Below are positions 2,854-60,608 of a stretch of 60,770 nt of DNA, in pieces. Every line of letters starts with the position of its first letter. Within the stretch, counting starts at the first letter, position 1. The stretch is taken from assembly GCA_944323615.1 (NCBI GenBank), contig CALUTG010000006.1, positions 1 through 60,770 on the forward strand, read 5' to 3'. The notes beneath the pieces were generated by a model that saw only the letters and a list, made by a program, of their open reading frames with translations, did not search any database and was not told the DNA's origin. The position numbers were made by a program, and so were the translations under genes. This stretch comes from Candidatus Gastranaerophilales bacterium (GTDB taxonomy: Bacteria > Cyanobacteriota > Vampirovibrionia > Gastranaerophilales > Gastranaerophilaceae).

Positions 2854-4731
2854 CTAAGCTTCACTCTCAGCAGGAAGCATATTCTTAGGAATATATTCTT
2901 CAAGATCCTCTTCAGCCGGTTTAATCGGGAGTCTGAATCCGAAAGTTGAACCCTCACCTTCCTTAGATTGAACAAATACCTGTCCGTGGTGATGTTTTTC
3001 GATAGTAATTTTTACAAGATGTAATCCGAGCCCCGTACCTTTAACAGTATGTGTATCGTTTTCCACACGGAAAAATCTGTCAAAAATTTTCTTCTGATAT
3101 TTTTCAGGAATACCCGGTCCTTGATCTTCTACGCTTACTTCTACATATTCACCGTCGCGTGAACGTTCAACTCTGATTTTAATACGTTTTCCGTCAGGTG
3201 AATACTTGATTGCGTTAGATAAAATGTTCATTAAAGCTCTTGAAATACTGTCTACATTCAGATAGATTTCAGGAAGATCCGGTTCTTTCATTACAGAAAT
3301 TGTCAAATCATGTTCTTTAGCAAGCACCTGAACCTGATTTACGCAGTCTTCCACAATATCCATAATATTCTGTTTAGTTTTTTCAAGGTGTATATTCTGA
3401 GATTCGTATCTTGAAAAATCAAGAATATCATTAACCATTCTGTTAAGTCTTATAATTTCCTGATTCATAACCCCGATGAATTCCCTCTGGGTATTGAAAT
3501 CAAAATCATTTCCGTAATTATAAAGAGTATCAATATAGCTTCTTAAAACGGTAACAGGAGTTCTCAACTCGTGTGAAACATTTGATATAAAGTGAGAGCG
3601 CAATTGATCCATCTCAACATCCTTTGTCACGTCAATCAAAACTATAATATACCCGACGTAAGAATTTGAGCGGGTAAACATAGGCGAAATAAGACATTTT
3701 AAAATTCTGTTATCAATGGTTATATTGAAAGGAACAGGAGAGCCTTCTTCTTCCAGCGGTGTATCTTTGAACTGAGCAATTTTCTCATTAAAACAGAATT
3801 CTCCGCTTGAATCACAGAACTGCTGAATCTGTGTTCCGACAATATCTTCTTCATCAACTTCCAGAAGTTTTTTAGCATGGTTATTAACCATAATAACTTT
3901 ATCATGGTTATCACATACTACAACCCCGTTAACAATACTCATTAAGACGGATTCCAGTTTGTTTCTTTCAAAAGTCAAACTTTCAATAGTCTGTTCGTTA
4001 TACCGGCTGAGTTTTTCGGACATATCGTTAAATGCGCCGTAGAGCTCTTTAACCTCTTTATCTACGTCTTTGTCATCAATCATATAGCCAAATTCGCCGG
4101 ATGAAATCTTTTTAACCCCCTGATAAAGTTTTCTTAATTCACCGGTGATAATTGAAGAGTTCATATAAATAATACCCGCAATTACAAGCCAAGCAAGCGC
4201 AAATACAAACGCTATAGAGACTTTGGATGTTGCGGAAATTCTATCCATTATACTTCCGGAAAGTCCGACCGTTACTGATCCGACATTGACAGAGTCGCTC
4301 AAGTTTTTAACAATCATCGGAGAACTTACGGTAATTCTTGCTTTTTCAGCCTGCTCCGGATAGTCATCTTTGCTTGAGTAAATAACTTTGGAATCATTAT
4401 CTTTAAAAATAATAAAAGCTATGTCATTATTGCTTCTTAAAATAGAAACCGAATTTGTTCTTAAAGCATCGTACTTAGCCAGAGGCGGAACTTCTTTTGT
4501 TACTTCTACCCCTTCAATTGCAAGAGTTTTGGAAAGCACCTGTGCAAAGTTTTTGTAAGCACTGTTCATGTTTTTATCAATGCTGTAGGTAGCAAAACAA
4601 GCGGTGCAGAAAATAAAGACGGTGCTGAGAACAAGCCCAGTAATAATAAGCCTTGTCTGTGCCGTCATCTTTTTCTTAGCCTTCTTCTTCCCCGGCGGAT
4701 TTTTAAAATCTTCAGCGCTGTTGTTTTCCAT
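2854..4731 (-). CDS. Membrane sensor histidine kinase (WalK/NblS-type layout)
   Basis: A two-component sensor of about 625 aa. In order it has a basic N-terminus, TM1 (about 28-48), an extracytoplasmic domain of about 120 residues, TM2 (about 172-192), HAMP (about 193-246), PAS (about 258-373), HisKA with phosphorylatable His387 in SHELRTPV, and an HATPase with N-box (NILSNAIKYS), DQGPGIP and GTGLGLHL. Firmicute WalK and cyanobacterial NblS share this order, but orthology is not shown. No response regulator is adjacent. An upstream TTG at 4767 is in frame, but TTGCTA-17-TATAAT overlaps it and ends seven bases before the ATG at 4731, so I prefer the ATG and a leaderless message. Confidence 0.88.
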   Translation of the reverse strand: MENNSAEDFKNPPGKKKAKKKMTAQTRLIITGLVLSTVFIFCTACFATYSIDKNMNSAYKNFAQVLSKTLAIEGVEVTKEVPPLAKYDALRTNSVSILRSNNDIAFIIFKDNDSKVIYSSKDDYPEQAEKARITVSSPMIVKNLSDSVNVGSVTVGLSGSIMDRISATSKVSIAFVFALAWLVIAGIIYMNSSIITGELRKLYQGVKKISSGEFGYMIDDKDVDKEVKELYGAFNDMSEKLSRYNEQTIESLTFERNKLESVLMSIVNGVVVCDNHDKVIMVNNHAKKLLEVDEEDIVGTQIQQFCDSSGEFCFNEKIAQFKDTPLEEEGSPVPFNITIDNRILKCLISPMFTRSNSYVGYIIVLIDVTKDVEMDQLRSHFISNVSHELRTPVTVLRSYIDTLYNYGNDFDFNTQREFIGVMNQEIIRLNRMVNDILDFSRYESQNIHLEKTKQNIMDIVEDCVNQVQVLAKEHDLTISVMKEPDLPEIYLNVDSISRALMNILSNAIKYSPDGKRIKIRVERSRDGEYVEVSVEDQGPGIPEKYQKKIFDRFFRVENDTHTVKGTGLGLHLVKITIEKHHHGQVFVQSKEGEGSTFGFRLPIKPAEEDLEEYIPKNMLPAESEA

Positions 4732-4738
4732 ACTCGAA

Positions 4739-4767
4739 ATTATATCACGTAAACTATTTTGTAGCAA
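4739..4767 (-). promoter_or_regulatory. Promoter abutting the sensor-kinase ATG
   Basis: On the minus strand, TTGCTA (4767-4762), a 17-base spacer and TATAAT (4744-4739) are followed by seven bases and then ATG. No Shine-Dalgarno site could fit in the resulting transcript. This is one of several such arrangements in the window. Confidence 0.6.
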
Positions 4768-24821: not shown

Positions 24822-24898
24822 AAATTTCTCCTCATGAATGTTTTACTAAAAAAATTTTCTGTTACAATAGAATTATTATACAACATTATGATGAATTT

Positions 24899-25549
24899 AT
24901 GCGACAACCTTCTATAATTTTATTAATTACAATTTTAATATTGTTTTTAAACCTTCCGGCACAATGCGCTGTACAAGGAAAGGTAGATTATGCTCCGCAA
25001 ATCGACTATTCACAGCTTACGGAAGACGATCTTGAACAAAAAGCAAAGGCATACTATTTTCTTGCTATGCAAAACGAATCCGATACTATTACGAATGAAA
25101 CAACAAAAGCCCTTAATATGTACCGTGCTTTACAGAAGATAGACCCGAAAAATGAAGCCTATTGTGTCAAACTCGGAGCTCTGTATGATAAACTTAATCA
25201 GGATAAATACGCAAAGGAAAATTTTTCCAGAGCAATAAGTATAAATTCTACCAACCCTGAACCATATTTTTATTTCGGCGAATATTACTACAAACACTGT
25301 GAATTCAGAAAAGCCTTTAAATATTATAAGAAGGCTTACGAAAGAGGATATATGGTTCACTATGACACCCTTTGCAGAATGGGGGATATATCCGCAAAAT
25401 TCGGCGACACAAGATGTGCAGTCATATACTTTGAAGCCGCATACCAGCTTAATCCAAATCCCGAACTGCAAAAAGCTATAACCTTTTTTAAAGGTAAAGA
25501 CGCAGAGAACCATCTTTTCAATTCTAACACCAGAATTAGAACAAAATAA
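24899..25549 (+). CDS. Secreted TPR protein
   Basis: A 216-aa protein with a signal peptide (LLITILILFLNLPAQCA, cleavage near residue 23) and about three to four TPR-type helix pairs from residue 50 (for example ALNMYRALQKIDPKNEAYCVKLGALYDKLNQ and PEPYFYFGEYYYKHCEFRKAFKYYKKAYERG). It is probably a periplasmic or envelope adaptor; its partner is unknown. It is divergent from nuoA. A TATGAT box ends six bases before the ATG and no Shine-Dalgarno site is visible, consistent with a leaderless start, though the -35 is weak. Confidence 0.75.
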   Translation: MRQPSIILLITILILFLNLPAQCAVQGKVDYAPQIDYSQLTEDDLEQKAKAYYFLAMQNESDTITNETTKALNMYRALQKIDPKNEAYCVKLGALYDKLNQDKYAKENFSRAISINSTNPEPYFYFGEYYYKHCEFRKAFKYYKKAYERGYMVHYDTLCRMGDISAKFGDTRCAVIYFEAAYQLNPNPELQKAITFFKGKDAENHLFNSNTRIRTK

Positions 25550-26008: not shown

Positions 26009-26020
26009 TATAATAATTTT
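26009..26020 (+). promoter_or_regulatory. -10 box six bases before the SpoIID-like start
   Basis: TATAAT (26009-26014), six bases (AATTTT), then ATG at 26021. An in-frame ATG at 26006 overlaps this box and is unlikely to be used. The -35 is poor. Confidence 0.5.
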
Positions 26021-26896
26021 ATGGGGATGAAAAGATTTTTTCTTTTGCTAATTACTCTGATAATTTTTATACAGCCGTGTTTTGCAATAAAAATAGGGCT
26101 GCAGACTAATGTCGGCAGAACCTATATAGGCTCTTCAACCCAGGCCGAAATTATTGACTGCAACACCAATAAACTTATTTTTATTATGGATCAGATGAAA
26201 GGTTACGAATTCAAACCCTACAGAAATGTTATTGCTATAAAAGTCGACGGTCAGTTTAAAAAAATAAGTTCAAATAAAATTGTTATAAAACCGCAGGATA
26301 ACGGTTATATAAGCGTTAAAAGGAAATGGTACCGCGGGAATTTTATGCTTGTAAACAGCGGGCTCGGACTAACCGTAATAAATGATATTAAAATAGAAGA
26401 ATATCTGCAGGGAGTTGTTCCGTCAGAAATGCCGTCAAGCTGGGAACATGATGCTCATAAGGCTCAAGCAATAGCCGCACGAAGTTATGCAATAGCTAAT
26501 CTCGGGAAACGTGCAAAAGACGGATACGACCTCAAAGACACTCCGGAAGATCAAGCCTATGGCGGAGCAAGCGCTGAAACTATACAAACAAATGATGCCG
26601 TTAAAGAAACCGAAGGCATAGTCCTGATTTATGACGGAAAAATTATCCCTGCATACTATTCAGCCTCAGCCGGAGGCAGAACCCGTTCCTCAGGACAGGT
26701 TTGGACTAAAGACCTTGCTTTTTTAAAATCCGTCCCGTCTTTTGATGACGGAATCAGAAAAAACGGGCATGGTGTCGGCATGAGCCAGTACGGAGCAAAC
26801 AACCTTGCTAAAAAGGGTTACAATGCCTATCAGATATTAAAATACTTCTATGCCAATATAAAGTTTGCTAAAATAAATCCAGAATACTATAAATAG
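26021..26896 (+). CDS. SpoIID/LytB-domain protein (peptidoglycan lytic enzyme type)
   Basis: About 291 aa with a signal peptide (FFLLLITLIIFIQPCFA). The SpoIID domain covers about 115-285: GVVPSEMPSSWEHDAHKAQAIAARSYA with the catalytic-type Glu, then EDQAYGG, YYSASAGGRT and GHGVGMSQYGA. Family members cleave the glycan strand of denuded peptidoglycan or activate amidases. Cyanobacteria and many non-sporulating diderms carry such genes, so sporulation is not implied. The start could also be the ATG at 26027. Confidence 0.85.
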   Translation: MGMKRFFLLLITLIIFIQPCFAIKIGLQTNVGRTYIGSSTQAEIIDCNTNKLIFIMDQMKGYEFKPYRNVIAIKVDGQFKKISSNKIVIKPQDNGYISVKRKWYRGNFMLVNSGLGLTVINDIKIEEYLQGVVPSEMPSSWEHDAHKAQAIAARSYAIANLGKRAKDGYDLKDTPEDQAYGGASAETIQTNDAVKETEGIVLIYDGKIIPAYYSASAGGRTRSSGQVWTKDLAFLKSVPSFDDGIRKNGHGVGMSQYGANNLAKKGYNAYQILKYFYANIKFAKINPEYYK

Positions 26897-48363: not shown

Positions 48364-48405
48364 AAGATGCATTCAAGTTATTCTTGCTTGTGGTATAAAA
48401 TAAGT

Positions 48406-48993
48406 ATGAAAAGAATAGAAAATATTGAAAAGATTAATGAAATTTTACTAAATGACGGCGTTATTGCTTTTGTAACAGACACTGTCTGGGGTCTGGGCTG
48501 CCTTCCATCAAGTGAAAAAGCCGTAAAAAAGATTTATGAAATTAAGCACAGAGAAGAAGTAAAACCGCTGATTCTTATGTCCGATGAAATCTACAACCTT
48601 TTTGACTATGTTAAACAACCAATCCCCAAAGAAGGTCAAAAATTAATAAAGAAATACCTTCCCGGCGCTTTAACCGTTGTTCTGGATAAATCTTCCAAAA
48701 CCCCGGATTATATGACCTCAAATATGCCGACTGTAGGAATAAGAATCCCTGATAACGAGATTTTTGCAGAACTTTGCAGAGGAATAGCGGGAAGAGTTCT
48801 TGCAACAACAAGCGCAAATATTTCCGGTGAACCTCCAGCTCTTACGTATGAAGAAGCAATAAAATGTATCGGCGGAAAAGCAGACTTTGTAATTCCGGAT
48901 TACGGTTTCCCCGCAAAAGGACGTGCATCAACTGTTGTCGGATTCAGAGGAGAATCACCGGTAATCTATCGTCAGGGCGAGATAGAAATTTAA
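48406..48993 (+). CDS. tsaC: Threonylcarbamoyl-AMP synthase (TsaC/Sua5/YrdC)
   Basis: First step of t6A37 tRNA modification. The YrdC fold covers the whole 195 aa: VIAFVTDTVWGLGC, IKHREEVKPLILM, LPGALTVVL, VGIRIPDN and LATTSANISGEP. The frame could begin at a GTG at 48214, but that region is repeat DNA; the ATG at 48406 gives the right length. TATAAA ends six bases before it and no Shine-Dalgarno site is seen, so a leaderless start is likely. It is a short, TsaC-type form without the Sua5 C-terminal domain. Confidence 0.92.
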   Translation: MKRIENIEKINEILLNDGVIAFVTDTVWGLGCLPSSEKAVKKIYEIKHREEVKPLILMSDEIYNLFDYVKQPIPKEGQKLIKKYLPGALTVVLDKSSKTPDYMTSNMPTVGIRIPDNEIFAELCRGIAGRVLATTSANISGEPPALTYEEAIKCIGGKADFVIPDYGFPAKGRASTVVGFRGESPVIYRQGEIEI

Positions 48994-49036
48994 TAATATA
49001 TTTTGTTTTTAAGCGAATTGTTGGTAAAATATAAGT

Positions 49037-49363
49037 ATGAAAAAAATATTGGCTACTTTGTTTCTAATATTAATAATCGCATATCCTGTGAAAGCAGAAC
49101 ATATCAGGTCAGATGGAATGGGTGGATATTATACCCCTGACGGACATGTTCGCTCGGATGGTATGGGCGGATTTTATACTCCGGTAGGTCATATGCGATC
49201 TGATAATATGGGTGGCTTTTACACTCAAGATGATCACATTCGTTCAGATGGTATAGGCGGGTTTTATTCAAAAGAAGGGCATATACGTTCTGACGGTTTT
49301 GGAGGATTTTATACTCCGGACGAACATATCAGATCGGATGGCATGGGCGGATTTTATAAGTAA
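49037..49363 (+). CDS. Secreted six-repeat glycine-rich peptide
   Basis: A 108-aa protein with a signal peptide (residues 1-20, ending AYPVKA), then exactly six tandem 15-residue repeats with consensus H-I-R-S-D-G-M-G-G-F-Y-T-P-D-G; the last is cut after FYK. Arg-Ser-Asp-Gly and Gly-Gly-Phe/Tyr are nearly invariant. The repeats differ at DNA level, so they are maintained at protein level. TAAAAT ends six bases before the ATG, with no ribosome site. Its function is unknown; it may be a surface or periplasmic structural or metal-binding peptide. Confidence 0.75.
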   Translation: MKKILATLFLILIIAYPVKAEHIRSDGMGGYYTPDGHVRSDGMGGFYTPVGHMRSDNMGGFYTQDDHIRSDGIGGFYSKEGHIRSDGFGGFYTPDEHIRSDGMGGFYK

Positions 49364-49881: not shown

Positions 49882-50421
49882 TTAAAATTTTGAAAGATCC
49901 GTAGATTTAGATAATTTATAAATCAGATGTGTCATTTCCTTATTTCTGACATTTTTGATAAATTCACCACAAACTTTTGCATTCAAGTTTTCAGCAACTT
50001 TGCGTGATGAGATATTATTGGGACGAATTTCAAAGATAACTTCATTTAAGTGTAAAACATAAAACGCATAATCTTTTAGCGCTTTTGCGGCTTCTGTTGC
50101 ATATCCTTTATGCCAATAATCTTTTTTTAAAATATAACTGATTTCATAATATTGATTATCTGCAATTATATCCTGCTTTAATGCAGCTTGACCTATAACT
50201 TTTCCTGATTTATTTTCAGACATTATAAAAAAACCAAGATTACATTTTTTATACAGCTCTAAGTTTCTATCAATCCATTCTTGGACATCTTTATCCGTAA
50301 AATCGTATTCCCAAGCATACATAACCCGCTTATCTTGCAAAATTGTTTTTAAAACCTCAAAATCATCTTGAGTTATATATCTTAAACTTAATCTTTCTGT
50401 TTCTAAAAATAAATTTTGCAT
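49882..50421 (-). CDS. GNAT acetyltransferase, RimJ/RimL type
   Basis: A 179-aa N-acetyltransferase. TERLSLRYITQDDFEVL at the N-terminus, then the acetyl-CoA loop region YILKKDYWHKGYATEAAKAL (Q/RxxGxG/A-type) and the terminal NISSRKVAENLNAKVCGEF are typical. It may acetylate a ribosomal protein or small molecule. A TAGAAT box on the minus strand ends six bases before the ATG and there is no Shine-Dalgarno site, fitting the leaderless pattern. Confidence 0.85.
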   Translation of the reverse strand: MQNLFLETERLSLRYITQDDFEVLKTILQDKRVMYAWEYDFTDKDVQEWIDRNLELYKKCNLGFFIMSENKSGKVIGQAALKQDIIADNQYYEISYILKKDYWHKGYATEAAKALKDYAFYVLHLNEVIFEIRPNNISSRKVAENLNAKVCGEFIKNVRNKEMTHLIYKLSKSTDLSKF

Positions 50422-50506
50422 GAAAATATTCTATCTTAAAATAATCTTTTTAAGCAAGGACGCAGTATTCCGCTATCAACAGCTTTGTGAAATGCGTAGA
50501 AAAAGT

Positions 50507-52633: not shown

Positions 52634-52840
52634 CTAACCTGCCACAATACCGTCCAAGTTTGAAGCTAATTCCTTCTGGTTGTTTAAGAGAACTTCCAGC
52701 ACTGCGCCGAGAGCAATAAATTCCTGAGATTTGTCGTAATGAAAATCACAGTATGTTTTTGCAACTTCCAGCAATCCGATACTGAATGTAATCTTTTGTT
52801 CCAAATTTAAAATATTGTCTTTATCATTAATAATCATCAT
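52634..52840 (-). CDS. Small unknown protein, predicted leaderless
   Basis: About 68 aa from the ATG at 52840 (MMIINDKDNILNLEQK). A longer frame starts at 52855 but would run through the -10 box. The body is helical (EQKITFSIGLLEVAKTYCDFHYDKSQEFIALGAVLEVLL), and no motif is recognised. The promoter is excellent and no ribosome site exists, so this is one of the best leaderless candidates. Confidence 0.6.
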   Translation of the reverse strand: MMIINDKDNILNLEQKITFSIGLLEVAKTYCDFHYDKSQEFIALGAVLEVLLNNQKELASNLDGIVAG

Positions 52841-52846
52841 ATACAT

Positions 52847-52875
52847 ATAATACATGATTTTATTATTAATGTCAA
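52847..52875 (-). promoter_or_regulatory. Consensus promoter six bases from an ATG
   Basis: Minus strand TTGACA (52875-52870), 17-base spacer, TATTAT (52852-52847), ATGTAT, then ATG at 52840. Confidence 0.75.
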
Positions 52876-57723: not shown

Positions 57724-57752
57724 TTGAAATCGTTCGAAGTTTCATTTAAAAT
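57724..57752 (+). promoter_or_regulatory. Near-consensus promoter six bases from an ATG
   Basis: TTGAAA (57724-57729), 17 bases, TAAAAT (57747-57752), ATAAGT, ATG at 57759. The same TAAAATATAAGTATG string occurs at 49025-49039. Confidence 0.72.
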
Positions 57753-57758
57753 ATAAGT

Positions 57759-58466
57759 ATGGAGAAAATATTTCTTATAATAACGTTAATAGCTTTAACC
57801 ATTGTACCGGTGTCTGCGGAAGAAGTCGTTAAAGAAACCTATAAACTTCAGGGTCAGGTAGAATACGATGATAATCCAGTTGAGACAATTTATCTGGATG
57901 ATACAATAGAAAGACCCCAGGTGAACATCCCAAAGCGGACATTGACCCTTCCGGTAGGGGTCCTGAATATAACATCCAATACCGACACTCCCAGGAGTGC
58001 ACTCGCCAGAGCGATGGTAAATAGAAGACGTGTTCAGGATATACTTCCCCTTAGCGGTAGTATTTCGGAACAATCAGGAGGTTTTTCATACGGATCAACC
58101 TGGGGAGAAGAACTCTCATATGCTCAGATAGAGTCTTCTGCTTCAATGTTTGTAAGATATGATGCGCCTAAATTTTTTTCTCTGATGACAGATATAAAAC
58201 AGTCCGCCAATCAGGACATAGGAACACAATATAACACATTAAGAGTTACTCCAGAGTGGCATATAACGGATAAATTAACATTGAAAGATTCTTTTTCTAC
58301 TTATATGAATCTTCCAAAGAATAAAAATGAGATTACACTGGTTTACACTCCGGACTTAAAAAAATATGCGGATTCACTTAAATTTGAATTGGGAGTCGCT
58401 CAATCTTATTATCAAAGCGGAAGACAAAGTTCTTCATTCAGCTTTACAACAGGTTTCAAGTTGTAA
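57759..58466 (+). CDS. Secreted beta-rich protein, possible small outer-membrane barrel
   Basis: A 235-aa protein with a signal peptide (FLIITLIALTIVPVSA). The C-terminal half alternates polar and hydrophobic residues as in beta strands (ASMFVRYDAPKFFSLMTDIKQ, YNTLRVTPEWHITDKLTLKDSF, KFELGVAQSYYQS) and ends FSFTTGFKL, a C-terminal aromatic/hydrophobic pattern like outer-membrane barrels. Residues 60-110 include RRRVQDILPLSGSISEQSGGFSYGSTWG. The family is not recognised. It is preceded by a strong promoter and no ribosome site. Confidence 0.65.
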   Translation: MEKIFLIITLIALTIVPVSAEEVVKETYKLQGQVEYDDNPVETIYLDDTIERPQVNIPKRTLTLPVGVLNITSNTDTPRSALARAMVNRRRVQDILPLSGSISEQSGGFSYGSTWGEELSYAQIESSASMFVRYDAPKFFSLMTDIKQSANQDIGTQYNTLRVTPEWHITDKLTLKDSFSTYMNLPKNKNEITLVYTPDLKKYADSLKFELGVAQSYYQSGRQSSSFSFTTGFKL

Positions 58467-58489
58467 TTAATCGGAAAATTTTATATAAT
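58461..58489 (+). promoter_or_regulatory. Promoter seven bases from the DivIC-like ATG
   Basis: TTGTAA (58461-58466), 17 bases, TATAAT (58484-58489), seven bases, ATG at 58497. It overlaps the end of the preceding gene. Confidence 0.7.
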
Positions 58490-58496
58490 TAGTTGT

Positions 58497-58928
58497 ATGG
58501 TACGCTACAGACAAGAAAAAAGAAGACCCGGAAAAGTAGTCAATAAAGAAGGGAAAAAAGACAAGACCGCACAAACTAAACGGGCAGAGAAAAATTCTTC
58601 CAGCGGTTTTTACTATTCTTTTCTTACTATAATTCTGCTTTTGTGCCTTGTACAAATAACAATAAGTGCTGTCTTAAATATTTCTAAAATAATTTCTTAT
58701 AAAGCAAAAATTATTCAAATAACAAAGACGAGAGACGCCGCATTAGCTTTAAATGATCAGCTTAAGGATAATATCAATAACTTTTCAAATGTTGCCGGTT
58801 TGGAAGCTATTGCAAGAAATAATTTAAAAATGTCATCGGAAGATGAAGTTCTGGTTATTATAAATTCAAACAAAGATGAAGAGAAAGAAGAAAAACCTAA
58901 GAAGATAGGCTTTATAAAACATGATTAA
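58497..58928 (+). CDS. Division protein of the DivIC/FtsB septum-initiator type
   Basis: A 143-aa bitopic protein: a basic cytoplasmic N-terminus of about 38 residues (KRRPGKVVNKEGKKDK), one membrane helix (about 42-64), a short coiled coil and the family signature VAGLEAIARNNLKMSSEDEVLVI. It would join FtsL and FtsQ at the septum. The long basic tail is more DivIC-like than FtsB-like. It overlaps the TPR gene by eight bases. Confidence 0.8.
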   Translation: MVRYRQEKRRPGKVVNKEGKKDKTAQTKRAEKNSSSGFYYSFLTIILLLCLVQITISAVLNISKIISYKAKIIQITKTRDAALALNDQLKDNINNFSNVAGLEAIARNNLKMSSEDEVLVIINSNKDEEKEEKPKKIGFIKHD

Positions 58929-59952: not shown

Positions 59953-60320
59953 GAAAAGAATTCTGTTTCTTTAAATAATGCGTAGAACTCTTCAAGCCTT
60001 GGTTTATTATGCAAATACCAGAATCCGATTAGGGCTTCAAAAGCGGTTGCTTGACGATAATCGGACTGAATTTTCCTTCTGCCGACCGGAATTGGGAGGT
60101 TTCGCGCACGGCGGGCGATTTCAAGCTCTTCTTCCGTCAGTTTAGGCATAATAAGTTCAAGCATATCTTTTTGGAATGAAGCGTTAACCCTGTCAGTAGT
60201 TAATTTATGCAGAAGCTTTGCGTTAGGGGTTTTCAAGACGGTGTAATCTCTTACAAAAACTTCCCAAACAGCATCGCCAATATGTGCATAGTTTCTGAGC
60301 GGCATAATTTCTTCTATCAT
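59949..60320 (-). CDS. mrnC: Mini-ribonuclease III (MrnC)
   Basis: Dimeric RNase III without a dsRNA-binding domain; it matures 23S rRNA in known species. The domain is complete from the ATG at 60320: YAHIGDAVWEVFVRDY with the metal Asp, KLLHKLTTDRVNASFQ, RRARNLPIP, SDYRQATAFEALIGFWYL with the second Glu/Asp site, RLEEFY. The length of 123 aa fits the family. An alternative ATG at 60380 has AAGGGG upstream but adds 20 non-family residues; TATTAT ends six bases before 60320. It overlaps the TPR gene end by four bases. Confidence 0.9.
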   Translation of the reverse strand: MIEEIMPLRNYAHIGDAVWEVFVRDYTVLKTPNAKLLHKLTTDRVNASFQKDMLELIMPKLTEEELEIARRARNLPIPVGRRKIQSDYRQATAFEALIGFWYLHNKPRLEEFYALFKETEFFS

Positions 60321-60429
60321 AAAAGTATAATAGCATGAAATCTTTAAGCTTAGAATTTTGTCTTTTTGCAGCGGCTTCATTTCAACCCCTTTACAAAAAA
60401 AATTTATTTGATAATATAGATAAGTGAAT

Positions 60430-60549
60430 TGAATAATCCTCAGTAGCTCCCAAAGTGAAGCGAACGCGGAACGGGCTACAGATATCGGAGCAGTTGCTCC
60501 GGCATTGAGGAGATACAATTGAATAAGACTGAATAATCCTCAGTAGCTC
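60430..60549 (+). repeat. Duplicated 20-base tRNA front end
   Basis: The 20 bases at 60430-60449 and 60530-60549 are identical, exactly 100 bases apart, and comprise the leader plus the first 13 bases of tRNA-Asn (from TCCTCAG). After the first copy the tRNA does not continue; instead there is GAAGCGAACGCGGAAC-type sequence and a perfect hairpin CGGAGCA-GT-TGCTCCG (60486-60501). Confidence 0.7.
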
Positions 60550-60608
60550 AATGGCGGAGCAACCGGCTGTTAACCGGTAGGTTGTTGGTTCGAGTCCAAC
60601 CTGGGGAG
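60537..60608 (+). tRNA. tRNA-Asn (GTT)
   Basis: A full cloverleaf: acceptor TCCTCAG/CTGGGGA, D stem GCTC/GAGC, anticodon stem ACCGG/CCGGT with loop CTGTTAA and anticodon GTT, T stem GTTGG/CCAAC with TTCGAGT, discriminator G. CCA is not encoded. It is followed by TTTTTT and then a terminator. Confidence 0.96.

Follow-up and report, generated by a model that had tools for sequence, protein, structure and literature searches.

The gene that begins at position 57759 raises the question of how a message is translated when the -10 box of its apparent promoter lies only six bases before the start codon. This candidate leaderless promoter (57724..57761, plus strand) consists of TTGAAA (57724-57729), a 17-base spacer, TAAAAT (57747-57752), six bases and the ATG, and the ORF that follows (57759..58466, plus strand) encodes, by ORF and Pfam evidence, a 235-aa secreted protein with a signal peptide and no Pfam family. 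The window, by which we mean the whole stretch of 60,770 nucleotides analysed here, is one contig of a 1.93-Mb, 90-contig Candidatus Gastranaerophilales MAG; the Gastranaerophilales are a non-photosynthetic, mostly gut-dwelling branch of Cyanobacteriota/Melainabacteria. We consider it probable (about 0.9) that sites of this kind are sigma70-type promoters giving leaderless mRNAs. In the proposed mechanism, a -35 TTGnnn element or an extended TGn would be set together with TATAAT so that transcription begins at the A of the ATG. The mRNA that RNA polymerase makes would then have a 5'-terminal AUG and no leader, and its translation, with no Shine-Dalgarno site to guide it, would presumably use 70S or IF2-assisted leaderless initiation. 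The sequence basis for this reading is the promoter geometry, its conservation, its genomic distribution and the anti-Shine-Dalgarno 16S tail in two relatives; it is from these that we infer where transcription would start and how translation would begin.

A preliminary description of the window had listed nine such sites. Extraction of 60 upstream bases per site recovered all nine motif strings and spacings exactly as described, including the -35 boxes at a 17-base spacer before 57759, 52840, 58497 and 4731, and comparison of the upstream strings showed that ATAAGTATG is indeed common to 57759, 48406 and 49037. Downstream of the 57759 gene, the candidate promoter of a DivIC-like gene (58461..58499, plus strand) reads TTGTAA (58461-58466)-17-TATAAT (58484-58489)-7-ATG, its -35 element being made of the last codon and stop codon of the gene at 57759-58466; the ORF (58497..58928, plus strand) encodes a DivIC/FtsB-like septum protein (PF04977, E 9e-9). 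These two genes adjoin in this genome and in most relatives having both, which suggests a conserved pair. On the minus strand, the candidate promoter at 4729..4767, TTGCTA (4767-4762)-17-TATAAT (4744-4739)-7-ATG, precedes an ORF identified by domain matches as a PAS/HAMP histidine kinase (2854..4731, minus strand), and that at 52838..52875, TTGACA (52875-52870)-17-TATTAT (52852-52847)-6-ATG, precedes a 68-aa ORF at 52840 whose start is uncertain, given that the ORF is short and has alternative ATGs 6 and 15 bases upstream.

At the other five sites the box itself stands six bases before the ATG. On the plus strand these belong to a SpoIID-like secreted protein (gene 26021; 26009..26023, TATAAT at 26009-26014), a Sua5/YciO/YrdC protein (gene 48406; 48394..48408, TATAAA at 48394-48399) and a small secreted repeat protein (gene 49037; 49025..49039, TAAAAT at 49025-49030). 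The protein encoded at 49037-49363 has about six near-identical HIRSDGMGGFYTPDG repeats and no Pfam family. On the minus strand are the weak box of a GNAT acetyltransferase (gene 50421; 50419..50433, TAGAAT at 50433-50428) and the box of a mini-RNase III-like protein (gene 60320; 60318..60332, TATTAT at 60332-60327), a gene adjoined on the opposite strand by a tRNA gene (60537-60608). A strict scan of the window returned eight genes with a box (five divergent, three 'mid'), comprising seven of the nine sites and a possible tenth, absent from the preliminary description, before the secreted protein gene 24899 (24887..24901, plus strand, TATGAT-6-ATG), which is weak and could be a chance match. 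It passed over 48406, whose TATAAA does not satisfy the TA...T filter, and 60320, a gene absent from the called set.

We then counted boxes in an 851-kb sample of the same genome (790 kb in stretches plus the window; GC of the genome about 36-37%), in which 747 genes were called by codon usage. The strict -10 was TATAAT with at most one mismatch and TA...T kept, and d denotes the number of bases between the end of the hexamer and the ATG. The preliminary description had named a genome-wide positional peak as support for leaderless messages and its absence as refutation, and such a peak is present, at d=6 with a shoulder at d=7. Among 249 unambiguous ATG starts, chosen without reference to upstream signals, a box stands at d=6 in 16 and at d=7 in 5, as against about 3 at other distances; pooled over d=5-7, 21 boxes were observed and 8.1 ± 2.7 were found in dinucleotide shuffles. 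In the larger set of 719 genes, 48 have a box at d=6 and 22 at d=7, as against an average of 16.3 at d=13-39; ATGs opening at least 60 codons give 87 at d=6 vs about 44. Over all ATGs of the whole genome there is only a weak excess (236 vs about 180), so restriction to ORF starts is needed. TATAAT-like boxes also form a secondary bump at d=11 in the same-genome sample; we dropped this as a second class, as overlapping registers, in which TATAGTAAAAT reads as two boxes, explain at least part of it. At d=6/7 the sample holds 71 ATG candidates with a strict -10 vs about 32 expected by chance, so that chance, which accounts for about half of the candidates, is not negligible for any single site. 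Counted above background with the strict -10, the leaderless class would be a minority, at about 6% of genes overall and about 12% of those that are divergent and promoter-proximal.

The preliminary description had further held that two initiation modes are split by gene position. We classed genes by their neighbours, compared divergent first genes with close operon-internal ones, and scored Shine-Dalgarno sites as GGAG/GAGG/AGGA. Of 202 divergent first genes, 37 have a -10 at d=6/7, whereas only 6 of the 235 close internal genes do (Fisher p 2e-8), which makes it about 7 times commoner in the promoter-proximal position. Shine-Dalgarno sites are the larger class at both positions (101/202 divergent, 129/235 internal), and of the 15 divergent first genes in the window seven have a Shine-Dalgarno site and five a -10. 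The -10 seldom coincides with a Shine-Dalgarno site, 63 genes having the -10 only and 7 both. Coexistence of the two modes is thus borne out, in this genome and across the family, and the strict split is not: the separation is statistical, and as Shine-Dalgarno sites outnumber the -10 box among operon-first genes of both window and genome, position permits a mode and does not dictate it. This MAG lacks the 16S gene, but two relatives have an intact anti-Shine-Dalgarno CCTCC at their 16S ends, which makes initiation by Shine-Dalgarno pairing available. One 16S rRNA gene, L314 (G038:C34:2855-4606), is about 230 bases longer than that of a relative (L313), with an insertion near the 5' end.

The boxes keep the company expected of sigma70-type promoters. 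Among 64 promoter-proximal cases, 20 have a TTG at spacer 16-18 and 23 a TGn, its TG one base away from the -10, and TTG-17-TAnnnT-6-ATG has 49 matches in the whole genome vs 20 for the reversed pattern. The -35 TTGnnn at 17 ± 1 and/or TGn is therefore enriched in the class as a whole and absent at some sites (26021 and 49037, for example). At d=6 the ATG follows a T in 40 cases, a C in 3 and an A in 1, so that 43 of 44 have a pyrimidine there, compared with 139 of the 247 Shine-Dalgarno genes (p 5e-9); for T alone, the comparison is 40/44 vs 130/247 (p 6e-7). Since bacterial RNA polymerase usually prefers a pyrimidine before a purine start, this base is independent evidence that transcription probably starts on the A of the ATG. 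The enrichment is confined to ATG starts, and TTG and GTG starts in the 851-kb sample show no -10 enrichment, falling below expectation. Leaderless initiation prefers AUG, and the confinement is consistent with that preference.

Four of six genes (4731, 57759, 60320 and 26021) share the spacing with at least half of their orthologues; the counts that follow omit the window's own gene, the kinase set consists of relatives only, and since orthologues are related, their counts are not independent. For the histidine kinase (4731), 33 of 37 orthologues have a -10 at 6/7 vs 1.1 shuffled, and most have a TTGCTT-like -35 and TGn too, though the flanks differ. The spacing recurs in 18 of 24 homologues of the 57759 protein vs 1.4 shuffled (maximum 4), those outside the genus being 22-38% identical, and in 14 of 28 orthologues each of the mini-RNase III (60320; 1.2 shuffled) and the SpoIID-like protein (26021; 0.9 shuffled). 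The DivIC-like gene (58497) has it in 5 of 20 orthologues vs 0.8 shuffled, many of its relatives being Shine-Dalgarno-led, often with a -10 at 16-36 bases upstream, and Sua5 (48406) in 2 of 29 vs 0.6 shuffled, the other relatives being mostly Shine-Dalgarno-led. At Sua5 three close relatives keep TATAAA-N6-ATG while the six bases vary, and we therefore rejected a reading of the 48406 site as TAAAAT at d=4. Among orthologues generally, some have the -10 at 9-11, for a leader of 3-5 bases, or at 16-36 with a Shine-Dalgarno site. As DivIC and Sua5 relatives are often Shine-Dalgarno-led, the initiation mode turns over. Individual genes may have an extra upstream promoter.

To place this signal within the phylum, we counted TATAAT-N6-ATG against the frame-matched TATAAT-N9-ATG in 146 Cyanobacteriota genomes. 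All 62 genomes of the family to which this one belongs have an excess (7415 N6 vs 3351 N9, ratio 2.2, minimum 1.4). The photosynthetic set, 62 genomes picked by their photosystem reaction-centre family PF00124, has no N6 excess (1810 vs 1743, ratio 1.04). A photosystem-lacking outgroup family (f11) has 213 N6 vs 95 N9 over five genomes, a 2.2-fold ratio, and three genomes of the same class tallied beside it have 162 vs 121; the f11 and f15 samples (152 and 106 kb) are too small to show a distance profile, and pattern counts are the basis for the outgroup claim. It is possible, if on balance doubtful, that leaderless initiation is a trait of the non-photosynthetic Cyanobacteriota lineage, absent or lost in the oxygenic members, with genes switching modes as gene order changes. 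The Sua5 and DivIC orthologues suggest such switching, between Shine-Dalgarno-led operon member and leaderless promoter-proximal gene.

Three other readings of the boxes have to be weighed. In an A/T-rich genome of 36% GC, where about 32 of 71 matches are expected by chance, the hexamers could be fortuitous TATAAT matches singled out in the preliminary description, and this may hold for weak single sites, 24899 and 50421 among them. As an account of the class this has almost no probability: the peak is sharp, at a single distance and not seen in shuffles, every one of 62 family genomes exceeds the frame-matched control spacing, and orthologues conserve the box. The box might instead be an RNA-level translation signal in leadered mRNAs, an S1-binding or Bacteroidetes-like A-rich element and no promoter; in other phyla, S1 binding has come under discussion as a possible role of AT-rich biases near -10 (PMC5397173). 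Such a signal would be needed equally at operon-internal genes, yet it is nearly absent there (6/235). It is also coupled to, and conserved together with, an upstream -35 TTG and TGn, and its exact spacing and the pyrimidine before the ATG suit a transcription start, so we regard this reading as highly unlikely.

If the boxes are promoters, translation could still begin at a downstream codon, which would give the mRNAs leaders after all, as is conceivable where the N-terminus is not fixed, 52840 being one such gene. The proteins whose N-termini can be judged speak against this. Read from sequence, a signal peptide begins at the ATG in the 57759, 26021 and 49037 proteins, and among candidates elsewhere in the genome PurB, RimO, IspE and Rpe match curated families from the first few residues, and for UvrB and MiaA the match begins at residues 4-5. 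The ATG-only usage and the base preceding the ATG, moreover, show selection on the ATG codon itself, and downstream initiation is accordingly very improbable as a general explanation. The suggestion in the preliminary description that the box corrects over-long starts is backed at 60320 and 48406 by orthologue lengths and alignments, the lengths of mini-RNase III-like orthologues favouring a start at 60320 over 60518.

Leaderless initiation, as we read these promoters, would give the numerous uncultured genomes of gut Gastranaerophilales a simple rule for choosing start codons. In these genomes gene finders seeking only Shine-Dalgarno sites may pick over-long starts, as could occur at 60320 and 48406. 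It also offers a testable contrast within the Cyanobacteriota, between leaderless genes in the non-photosynthetic gut branch and none detectable by the TATAAT-N6-ATG pattern in the oxygenic relatives.

TA-led leaderless genes are already known from Deinococcus, Actinobacteria and others, so the Gastranaerophilales are a new lineage for a known kind and the mechanism is ordinary; among open-licence papers, we found no report of leaderless genes for Gastranaerophilales/Melainabacteria. Leaderless transcription is predicted for 21.6% of bacterial species, a figure cited in the StartLink paper (PMC9581028). The definition of TA-led leaderless genes comes from Zheng et al. (2011; PMC3160421), who also set out the reason that leaderless genes have to be operon-proximal; as here, the signal lies about 10 bp upstream of the start and Shine-Dalgarno-led genes coexist. 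Cyanobacteria were not among their groups with leaderless genes, and many cyanobacterial genomes were said to use neither mode; the genomes were downloaded in 2010, and inclusion of Gastranaerophilales is not stated. Mycobacterium tuberculosis too has many leaderless mRNAs (PMC3898074); there the class was set by experimental transcription-start mapping, whereas ours is set by sequence alone. A close likeness is to the -10 motif that Zhong et al. (2025; PMC12340547) describe next to ORFs in Deinococcus-Thermus, where the hexamer also stands 6-7 bp before the ORF, RBS-led genes coexist and the arrangement is conserved between species. There the motif is TAnnnT, precedes about 30% of ORFs and was reporter-tested, whereas here it is TATAAT, at about 6% of genes and known from sequence only, and often accompanied by -35 or TGn elements.
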